A stretch of 38,996 nucleotides of DNA from an uncultured Bacilli bacterium. GTDB lineage: Bacteria > Bacillota_I > Bacilli_A > RFN20 > CAG-826. The DNA is taken from positions 1 to 38,996 of the forward strand of contig CALVYH010000009.1 of NCBI GenBank assembly GCA_944372115.1. Direction: 5' to 3'. Shown here one piece after another: positions 384 to 24,082 of the stretch. Made by a program: the position numbers and the translations under genes. Within the stretch, counting starts at the first letter, position 1, and every line of letters starts with the position of its first letter. The notes under the pieces were generated by a model. The model ran no database searches and had not been told where the DNA came from. It worked only from the letters and a program-made list of their open reading frames with translations.

Positions 384-764
384 TTATTTGATTTCAATAG
401 CTTTGATGCTGTTTTCAGTCTTTTTATGCAAGACAACTTTTAAAACGCCATCGCTATAAGAAGCTTCAATGTTATTTGCATCAACATCATTAAATAAATA
501 TGATCTTGAGTAAGAACCATAGAATCTTTCTTTTCTTAGATATTTCTTATTAGAATGTTCATTTTCACTTTCTTTATAAGAAACTTTTAAGTAATTATCA
601 TTGAAATCGAGGTGAATATTTTCCTTTTTAGCACCTGGCATATCAATAAAAAGAATATAGCAATCAGGATCTTCAATTACATCTGTTTTTAAAAGATTTG
701 ATCTTGAATGTCTCCCATCATTGAAAAATGCATCATAGAAATCATCATATAAATCGTAAGCCAT
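384..764 (-). CDS. Hsp20/alpha-crystallin small heat-shock protein
   Basis: A 126-residue ATP-independent holdase chaperone that keeps unfolding proteins soluble during stress. The short N-terminal arm contains YDDFYDAFF. The alpha-crystallin domain covers about residues 28-120, beginning at DVIEDPDCYILFIDMPG and including the typical DNNYLKVSY-like and DGVLKVVL strands. Length and order fit bacterial Hsp20 (IbpA/Hsp18 type). The ATG has a strong ribosome binding site, AGGAGG. It is a single-gene unit with its own terminator. Regulation is unusually readable: a perfect TTGACA/TATAAT promoter is overlapped by two CIRCE-type operators, so HrcA repression is expected (inference; hrcA is not in the window). 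Confidence 0.93.
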   Translation of the reverse strand: MAYDLYDDFYDAFFNDGRHSRSNLLKTDVIEDPDCYILFIDMPGAKKENIHLDFNDNYLKVSYKESENEHSNKKYLRKERFYGSYSRSYLFNDVDANNIEASYSDGVLKVVLHKKTENSIKAIEIK

Positions 765-927: not shown

Positions 928-956
928 TTGCTTATACTTATACATAAGTATAAAAT
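928..956 (+). promoter_or_regulatory. Promoter and palindromic operator of the ABC exporter operon
   Basis: TTGCTT (928-933) and TAAAAT (951-956) are 17 bases apart. A perfect inverted repeat, arms TTATACTTAT (932-941) and ATAAGTATAA (944-953) around a two-base centre, fills the spacer and touches both hexamers. This is a classic repressor position. The regulator is not identified in the window. Confidence 0.6.
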
Positions 957-13879: not shown

Positions 13880-14629
13880 ATGAAAAAGAAAGAAATGATG
13901 AAAAACGAAAATTCAAAAATAAAGAGTGAATATTTAGTCGAGTTCAAAAATGTTTCTAAAATTTATAAAGTTGGGGCAGAAGAAATAAAAGCTAATGATC
14001 ACCTCTCTTTTAATATTAAAAGAAAAGAGTTTACGATAATTGTTGGTCCATCCGGAAGTGGAAAAACTACACTTTTAAATTTGCTTGGAGGAATGGACAC
14101 GCTTTCTAGTGGCCACATAATTGTTGATGAAGAAGATATTTCTTCATATAACGATAAAAAACTTACATTATTTAGAAGAAACGCTATTGGTTTTGTTTTT
14201 CAATTTTATAACTTAATGCCAAATTTAACAGCAATTGATAACATTTCAATTGCTACTGAAATTTGTAAAAATCCTTTAAAAAGCATTGATGCTTTAAAAC
14301 TTGTTGGACTTTCTAATAGAAAAGATAATTATCCATCTCAACTAAGCGGAGGTGAACAACAAAGAGTTTCTATTGCAAGAGCATTAGCAAAAAATCCTAA
14401 GCTATTACTTTGTGATGAACCAACCGGAGCTTTAGATTATCAAACAGGTAAAATGATTCTAAAAGTTCTTTATGATTTATGTAAAAAAGAAGAAAAAACT
14501 GTCATCGTTATTACACATAACACTGCTTTATGTGCCATGGCAGATCATGTCCTTCATATTAAAAACGGAACTATAGTTAAAGAAGAATATAACGAAAATC
14601 CAACTCCTATTGAGAATATTGAATGGTAA
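13880..14629 (+). CDS. ABC transporter ATPase, MacB/LolD-type
   Basis: A 249-residue ATPase that powers the FtsX-type permease encoded next. Walker [10 protein letters not shown] is near residue 57, the Q-loop is in [14 protein letters not shown], the signature is LSGGEQQR, Walker [13 protein letters not shown] and the switch His is in VITHN. All are intact. [12 protein letters not shown] and EPTGALD are characteristic of the MacB/LolD/FtsE mechanotransmitter subfamily rather than of importers. The ATG at 13880 lies six bases after TAAAAT and has no Shine-Dalgarno sequence; a second ATG five codons on is possible. The 3' end overlaps the permease gene. Confidence 0.93.
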
Positions 14630-19952: not shown

Positions 19953-20029
19953 TGGTTGCGAGGGCAGGATTTGAACCTGCGACCTCAGGGTTATGAGCCC
20001 TACAAGCTACCAGACTGCTCTACCTCGCG
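19953..20029 (-). tRNA. Initiator tRNA-fMet (anticodon CAT)
   Basis: The first acceptor pair is C1-A72, unpaired, the hallmark of bacterial initiator tRNA. The loop CTCATAA gives CAT, discriminator A, encoded CCA. Last gene of the cluster. Confidence 0.95.
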
Positions 20030-20045
20030 ATTTCGTTTTTAATAA

Positions 20046-20136
20046 TGGCGGAGAAAGAGGGATTCGAACCCTCGCAAGACTTGCATCTTCTATCGGTTTT
20101 CAAGACCGACCCCTTCAGCCGCTTGGGTATTTCTCC
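20046..20136 (-). tRNA. tRNA-Ser (anticodon TGA)
   Basis: A 91-base tRNA with a long variable arm, discriminator G and encoded CCA. The loop CTTGAAA gives TGA. Confidence 0.95.
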
Positions 20137-20142
20137 TTAAAA

Positions 20143-20219
20143 TGGTGGACCATCTAGGACTTGAACCCAGAACCTAACCGTTATGAGCGGTCCGCTCTAA
20201 CCAATTGCGCTAATGGTCC
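20143..20219 (-). tRNA. tRNA with CAT anticodon, probable tRNA-Ile2 (lysidine)
   Basis: Acceptor GGACCAT, arm sequences and the GCTCATAAC anticodon region resemble the Bacillus tRNA-Ile whose CAT is changed to lysidine-AT by TilS. The acceptor is unlike that of the elongator Met tRNA 15 bases away. Confidence 0.8.
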
Positions 20220-20233
20220 GCGAGTTTCAAATT

Positions 20234-20310
20234 TGGTAGCAGCGGGGGGACTCGAACCCTCGACGCGCCGGGTATGAGCCGACTGCTCTAACCAACTGAG
20301 CTACGCTGCC
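20234..20310 (-). tRNA. Elongator tRNA-Met (anticodon CAT)
   Basis: Acceptor GGCAGCG/CGCTGCT with a G1-U72 wobble, loop CTCATAC, encoded CCA. By exclusion from the initiator and Ile2 copies it is the elongator. Confidence 0.88.
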
Positions 20311-20345
20311 ATCTCTATCTAATCTTCTAAACGTTCTTTTTTTAA

Positions 20346-20419
20346 TGGTGGACCCTAGGAGAATCGAACTCCTAATCCAAGCTTGCAAAGCTAGTGTTAT
20401 CCCATTTAACTAAGGGCCC
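20346..20419 (-). tRNA. tRNA-Ala (anticodon TGC)
   Basis: Loop TTTGCAA gives TGC. Acceptor GGGCCCT/AGGGTCC contains the G3-U70 wobble that identifies alanine tRNA. First gene of the cluster. Confidence 0.96.
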
Positions 20420-23692: not shown

Positions 23693-23722
23693 AAAGAAAA
23701 AACCACACAATTAATGTGTGGA
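23693..23722 (-). terminator. Terminator of the DtxR-type gene
   Basis: On the minus strand CCACAC (23716-23721), seven bases and GTGTGG (23703-23708), then six T. The stem includes the stop codon region, so the regulator and feo are separate transcripts. Confidence 0.82.
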
Positions 23723-24082
23723 ATTATATTTTTTTATTGCTTCAATAGTTTCATCACTTACGACATGTTCTATTTTACACGCATCTTCTTCAGCAACTTC
23801 ATTTTTAACACCTAATTTAATTAAAAATTCGGTTAGTGTTTTATGTCTACTATAAATTTTATCGGCATATTCTTCTCCTTTCTTTAAAAGGATGATTGAA
23901 TCATTGCTTAATATATCGATATAGCCTTTATTTTTTAAATTTTGCATAGCTCTAGAAACGGAAGCTCGTGAGAACCCCATTTTATTAGAAATATCAATAG
24001 CATGAACATTTTGTTTTTCACTTTTTAAAATTAATATTGTTTCTAAATACATTTCTTCACTTTCGTTATAAATTTTATTCAT
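23711..24082 (-). CDS. DtxR/MntR-family metal-dependent regulator
   Basis: A 123-residue transcription factor. The winged helix-turn-helix at about 10-60 (MYLETILILKSEKQNVHAIDISNKMGFSRASVSRAMQNLKNKG in order) is typical of MntR/IdeR. The metal and dimer domain (KTLTEFLIKLGV, CKIEHVVSDETIEAI) carries His, Glu, Asp and Cys candidates for metal ligands. There is no SH3 domain. The ATG has GGGGAA upstream. It stands just before the feo operon and has its own promoter, which contains a 19-base dyad of DtxR-box shape, so autoregulation and control of feo are plausible. Whether it senses iron or manganese is not clear. Confidence 0.9.
   Translation of the reverse strand: MNKIYNESEEMYLETILILKSEKQNVHAIDISNKMGFSRASVSRAMQNLKNKGYIDILSNDSIILLKKGEEYADKIYSRHKTLTEFLIKLGVKNEVAEEDACKIEHVVSDETIEAIKKYNSTH

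Follow-up and report, generated by a model that had tools for sequence, protein, structure and literature searches.

A conserved palindrome at the promoter of a heterodimeric ABC exporter gene pair, a probable repressor operator in an uncultured lineage of Bacilli

Introduction

A stretch of 38,996 nucleotides from an uncultured Bacilli bacterium (hereafter the window) contains a perfect palindrome at the promoter of a gene pair for a heterodimeric ABC exporter. Is this palindrome the binding site of a regulator, and where might such a regulator be encoded? Its position and symmetry are conserved among relatives and one double change is compensated, which together give good support, at the sequence level, to reading it as an operator that acts on the exporter promoter. 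We put at about 0.8 the probability that the palindrome is a DNA operator bound by a dimeric transcription factor; a repressor is the likeliest kind. The element is of an ordinary kind. For a lineage that is represented here by uncultured assemblies alone, it would provide a well-delimited, experimentally tractable regulatory site of a multidrug-type exporter.

The exporter genes and their neighbourhood

The start of subunit A was placed at the ATG of Table 1 rather than at TTG 928 of the automatic ORF list. Pfam domains PF00664 (ABC membrane) and PF00005 (ATPase) were found in subunits A and B alike. The two genes are adjacent, each encodes both domains, and one catalytic site of the pair is degenerate, as in heterodimeric ABC exporters. 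None of the best 25 NCBIfam families per subunit scored over the cut-off, so no substrate was assigned.

Table 1. Features of the exporter locus in window coordinates
Feature	Coordinates	Strand	Remarks
Divergent Hsp20-type small heat-shock gene	384..764	-	named from sequence; own consensus promoter, -35 864-859, -10 842-837
-35 hexamer TTGCTT	928..933	+	weak by consensus; TTGATT in G123 and G133
22-base palindrome, proposed operator	932..953	.	TTATACTTAT-AC-ATAAGTATAA; two perfect 10-base arms, 2-base centre
-10 hexamer TAAAAT	951..956	+	17 bases after the -35
Exporter subunit A, 582 aa	964..2712	+	Walker B LILDDSFSALD, degenerate-site half of the heterodimer; start conserved
Exporter subunit B, 604 aa	2714..4528	+	Walker B LLILDEATSNID

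Upstream of the exporter lie the hsp20 gene and then a tRNA-Arg gene, and a membrane-protein gene follows downstream. The hsp20 and membrane-protein genes were also found in three records (L047, L048 and L050) that represent the same contigs of the related genomes G085, G123 and G133. No regulator gene adjoins the exporter in the window, though the contig extends only 963 bases beyond it on the upstream side; of all the ORFs there, a DtxR-type gene at 23711-24082 is the only one recognised as a regulator. The statement of the preliminary description that no regulator is encoded nearby therefore holds as far as the contig is visible.

The hsp20 gene and its promoter are no part of the operator. 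In front of this gene, at 806-832, we observed an inverted repeat (TTAGCACTC-n9-AAGTGCTAA) which we take to be CIRCE-like and which suggests control of hsp20 by HrcA. Elsewhere in the window, five tRNA genes (Met, Ser, Met, Met, Ala) stand in a row at 19953-20419, three of them with anticodon CAT.

The palindrome and the core promoter

Through inspection of the promoter, the perfect palindrome described before, with ten-base arms and a two-base centre, was confirmed. It had been placed exactly between the -35 and -10 hexamers, but it shares two bases with the end of the -35 and three with the beginning of the -10. The interval 928-956 given for it is the whole core promoter; the palindrome itself is limited to 932-953, and that it fills the 17-base spacer of this plus-strand promoter still stands.

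The -35 hexamer agrees with the consensus at 3 of 6 bases and the promoter is absent from the list of a consensus scanner. The first three bases of the hexamer, TTG, are invariant across the four co-located orthologues described below, and the predicted assignment of a promoter to 928-956 rests on conservation.

The pattern with up to three mismatches is expected 0.02 times in shuffles of the window, in a test that was set after the pattern had been seen. Perfect palindromes with arms of at least 10 bases and a gap of at most 4 occurred in 97 of 5000 dinucleotide shuffles (~2%) of the 199-base intergenic region. For palindromes with the same limits of arm and gap, the window (27% G+C) has nine, against 0-5 across 20 window shuffles. 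The palindrome by itself is weak evidence; its conservation in orthologues is strong evidence.

Conservation in orthologues

Orthologues of the exporter were sought in 116 genomes of the family and 26 genomes of the genus, and 19 of the 26 gave a match at E 1e-150 or better. We examined the upstream regions of 22 orthologues, 19 from the genus and three from other genera; matches of 34-40% identity (L016-L034) stayed outside this analysis. The palindrome was found 9-10 bases before the ATG in four of the 22 regions, namely in the window's own genome (G000) and in G085 (TTATACTTATATATAAGTATAA), G123 (TTATACTTATTAATAAGTATAA) and G133 (TTATACTTGTTTACAAGTATAA), whose exporter proteins are 95, 76 and 77% identical to that of G000, respectively. 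There is no site of such type before the exporter in G132 and G130, and none of the more distant orthologues examined has the form seen at 932-953. A lack of conservation in orthologous promoters, named in the preliminary description as evidence against its proposal, is thus not what we found for the three close orthologues, though it is for the more distant ones.

In the four-row alignment, 9 of 10 columns are invariant in the left arm and 9 of 10 in the right arm, against 0 of 2 in the centre, 4 of 24 in the upstream bases and 1 of 7 in the bases before the ATG (left arm versus the 24 upstream bases, Fisher one-sided 1.2e-4). The single variable arm pair is altered on both sides in G133, from A-T to G-C, and symmetry is kept. 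Because both halves changed together, the symmetry of the palindrome seems to be under selection. The covariation count of the four rows is not significant alone (135 of 500 shuffles were as good), so the operator argument is built on the contrast of the arms with the centre and flanks. A promoter dyad that is conserved in the four co-located orthologues, with one compensated pair and a free centre, is as expected for the operator of a dimeric factor.

Variant palindromes were observed elsewhere in the genus. Taking the TTGATA-17-TAAAAT promoter of G113 as reference, the palindrome of this genome (TTTATATTTGATATCAAATATAAA) is displaced by 9-10 bases in the upstream direction. With G113 added to the alignment, three pairs showed two-sided changes and 50 of 50 cells were paired; pairing and covariation score were matched by 2 of 500 shuffles and the number of changed pairs by 16 of 500, the register of G113 in this test having been fixed post hoc by the motif itself. 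A widened motif (TTATAYTTRNNNNYAARTATAA, up to one mismatch) gave 26 sites in the 26 genus genomes against 31 for the reversed motif (summed counts), that is, background, which leaves the perfect palindrome at an orthologous promoter as the one thing that backs the G113 variant. The G113 exporter groups with those of G133 and G123, its TetR1 is 93-94% identical to the TetR1 of G000 and G085, and a phosphofructokinase-like gene takes the place of hsp20 upstream of its exporter. Since grouping, TetR1 identity and neighbourhood disagree, the exporter locus of G113 may have been relocated or exchanged.

Palindromes 63-84 bases before the ATG were found in G127 (ATTACTTATAATATAAGTAAT) and G106 (ATTACTTATGTAATAAGTAAT). 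They were not accepted as the same site: they share the half-site ACTTAT, but the halves are 3 bases apart.

Specificity and copy number

The exact core (TATACTTRTNNAYAAGTATA) has one site each in five of 224 family genomes, and four of these five sites are the exporter promoter; the reversed core matched in 17 of 224 genomes (counted from the table). The fifth site, the only one outside the genus, lies in G042 between genes read as argS and ispF. No transporter stands alongside, and the site was taken as chance.

In the own genome there is one perfect copy of the palindrome, and no second good copy was found. The next-best places (within 3 mismatches of 20) have 2, 3 and 3 mismatches to the 22-base form and all lie inside ORFs. 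With up to three mismatches allowed, the 18-position core matched 23 sites and its reversed control 19, a background level, and a strongly degenerate second site would escape this search. The genome scan proposed earlier for further copies, especially in front of a regulator gene, thus returned none that was good in the own genome; the absence of other copies, which had been listed as counting against the proposal, is what this genome shows. Because a second good copy is missing there, the site would have a single target in the own genome, and nothing points to a regulator that controls its own gene through such a site. Locating an autoregulated regulator through further copies was given up at this background level. 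Six of the extra matches in other genomes were inspected (G127:C11, G132:C20, G119:C59, G125:C9, G113:C2 and G026:C5), and at none of these six was a candidate regulator gene found.

A probably leaderless transcript

Seven bases separate the exporter start codon from the -10. The sole Shine-Dalgarno-like word of the gene, AAGG, ends two bases before the ATG, which is too close. Because the ATG follows the -10 at this distance and a well-placed ribosome site is lacking, the exporter mRNA is probably leaderless, with a predicted start at or beside ATG 964 and the palindrome outside the transcript.

In 14 of the 22 orthologues a TATAAT-like hexamer (5 of 6 bases) precedes the ATG by 4-10 bases, against a shuffle rate of 0.196 (binomial 8e-6, which is overstated as related sequences were treated as independent). 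By script, 11 of 22 have TAAAAT itself at 6-9 bases upstream of the ATG, and G085 has it by reading. Among the 14 orthologues with this layout, 12 lack a Shine-Dalgarno-like 4-mer within the final 18 bases; eight of the 22 fall outside the layout, and five of those eight have such a 4-mer. These counts suggest that many exporter genes of such orthologues are leaderless, and operator and start codon of a leaderless exporter gene would lie within ~30 bases of each other. At window position 13880, an ABC-type ATPase gene likewise shows TAAAAT at a distance of 6 bases upstream of its ATG and lacks an evident Shine-Dalgarno word, and it may be leaderless.

Proposed control and alternative explanations

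A dimeric repressor bound at 932-953 would cover the spacer and part of both hexamers, so that RNA polymerase could not engage. After its release, presumably by a substrate or a stress ligand, transcription of both exporter genes would begin at ATG 964 or close beside it and give a leaderless mRNA. We infer that the factor represses rather than activates, and that it acts from elsewhere in the genome, encoded away from the operon.

Symmetry could also arise through RNA pairing, if the palindrome formed a hairpin in the 5' untranslated region as an attenuator or an mRNA stability element, and the two-sided change of one pair suits RNA and DNA equally. However, the -10 overlaps the right arm and the ATG comes 7 bases on, so the arms would be untranscribed if the promoter at 928-956 is used; lying outside the transcript, the palindrome would be favoured as a DNA operator over an RNA hairpin. 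Moreover, the -35 TTG and the -10 AAT, which are outside the arms, are conserved too, and the layout with the -10 near the ATG recurs in 14 of the 22 orthologues. We regard a hairpin as very unlikely. It is also quite unlikely that a chance palindrome in AT-rich DNA was retained merely through its overlap with the promoter. Such an origin agrees with the 97 of 5000 intergenic shuffles that did as well and with the low G+C content of the window (27%), yet the left arm lies mostly in the hardly constrained spacer and is invariant at nine of ten positions against 4 of 24 upstream, while its tenth position changes with its partner. Palindromes between the -35 and the -10 are known from MerR-type activators, and the placement found here is of that kind; but MerR-type activation needs a spacer of 19-20 bases, and the spacer in the alignment is 17 bases in all four orthologues, which makes a MerR-type site highly improbable.

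Candidate regulators

Regulators for the proposed repressor operator were searched by Pfam cut-off in the nine closest genomes. Matches over the cut-off were obtained for MarR in seven of the nine, for GntR in one (G132), and for TetR and HTH_3 in all nine, with 22 HTH_3 matches in G000 alone, which is too many to single out a candidate. PadR, the family to which LmrR belongs, was over the cut-off in none of the nine, and three weak PadR matches fall on MarR genes. GntR was over the cut-off in none of the four genomes with the site. None of these five family searches in the nine genomes revealed a proven partner for the site. In G085, an HTH_3 regulator of 119 aa is encoded 4.8 kb upstream of the exporter; no site with up to two mismatches stands in front of it among the matches listed, and the same gene is also upstream in G132, a genome without the site.

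TetR1, which has a recurrent TTGACTA-type site, was not favoured as the regulator. MarR1 was considered and likewise not favoured, nor were the MarR and TetR genes of G000:C19, for which no like gene was recognised by eye in the other three site-bearing genomes.

An orphan TetR-family protein, TetR2 (P0003; G000:C6:23469-24089, minus strand), might bind the site in trans, and we put this forward tentatively. Likely TetR2 orthologues occur in all four close genomes with the site (G000, G085, G133 and G123) against none of the five without it, which is 1 in 126 by simple counting, with five families tried and kinship uncorrected. TetR proteins commonly repress exporters. Against it, a different near-palindrome (TTAAAGATAA-n-TTTTCTTTAA) lies in the upstream region of tetR2 in G000 and G085, and no exporter-type site with up to three mismatches is near tetR2 in G000 among the matches listed. 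The tetR2 frame of G123 is broken by internal stops into open pieces of 94 and 114 aa, though G123 has a perfect operator. More distantly related proteins are encoded in genomes that lack the site (G130, 34%; G026, 39%; G116, 35%), and TetR2 matches at E 1e-8 occur in 12 of the 26 genus genomes, so that the count of none in five hinges on the orthology cut, with G130 only 70% complete. The co-occurrence of TetR2 with the site is a lead, not proof. A fuller picture, in which TetR2 would be a dedicated, single-target and non-autoregulated distant repressor covering the -35/-10 spacer of a leaderless promoter, with site and regulator co-evolving in the genus and the dyad re-positioned in each lineage, is possible and in our view rather doubtful. 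If it were true, the site would exist as form A in four species, as a shifted T-rich variant in G113 and as an upstream ACTTAT-n3-ATAAGT in G127 and G106. As for the interrupted tetR2 gene of G123 (L150, G123:C46), a pseudogene or an assembly error is possible.

It is unlikely that the site is bound by the MarR protein encoded directly upstream of a paralogous exporter (G000:C4), so that one repressor would serve two exporters. A MarR gene over the Pfam cut-off does stand just upstream of this second exporter in G000, and by coordinates the same arrangement is found in G085 and G113; G106 has it too, with a MarR match below the cut-off. But the MarR promoter regions of G123, G113 and G133 carry dyads of a different motif, TAGTTCG-n4-CGAACTA, and near the G000:C4 MarR gene no exporter-type site with up to three mismatches is among the matches listed. 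A long perfect palindrome around AAAAATACGATA/TATCGTATTTTT, perhaps a terminator, was also seen in G000, G085 and G113 (L076, L077 and L080) ahead of the MarR-exporter operon.

Comparison with known systems

The form of the site in G133 (ATACTTGTTTACAAGTAT) resembles ATACTTGTATACAAGTAT, the operator bound by GntR in the gluconate operon of Bacillus subtilis. Unlike in the GntR system, the four site-bearing genomes have no GntR match over the cut-off. A search by sequence in a limited collection of papers found none with the site forms or with this gnt operator, and searches by topic gave nothing on the question.

With regard to the transporter, subunit A matched both chains of TM287/288 of Thermotoga maritima (PDB 3qf4; E 1e-95 for chain A and 6e-79 for chain B), a solved heterodimeric exporter with one degenerate and one canonical site. 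P-glycoprotein chains outscore the TM287/288 chains as matches of subunit A. This comparison covers the transporter only and not its regulation.

For the regulation, the nearest comparison is LmrR-LmrCD of Lactococcus lactis, in which LmrR is reported to be the repressor of a heterodimeric ABC exporter (PMC4534193, PMC5428041). The likeness is in the kind of target, the promoter of a gene pair for a heterodimeric ABC exporter of the multidrug type, with control by a repressor presumed here. LmrR also binds and autoregulates its own promoter, whereas here no regulator gene is adjacent, the site is single-copy and PadR is over the cut-off in none of the nine genomes.

Within the same genome, the paralogous MarR-exporter operon (G000:C4) is similar in having an ABC exporter subunit, with 36% identity. 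It differs in its local MarR gene and, in relatives, in the TAGTTCG-n4-CGAACTA dyad. The site at 932-953 thus stands in contrast to a paralogous exporter of this genome whose MarR gene is local.
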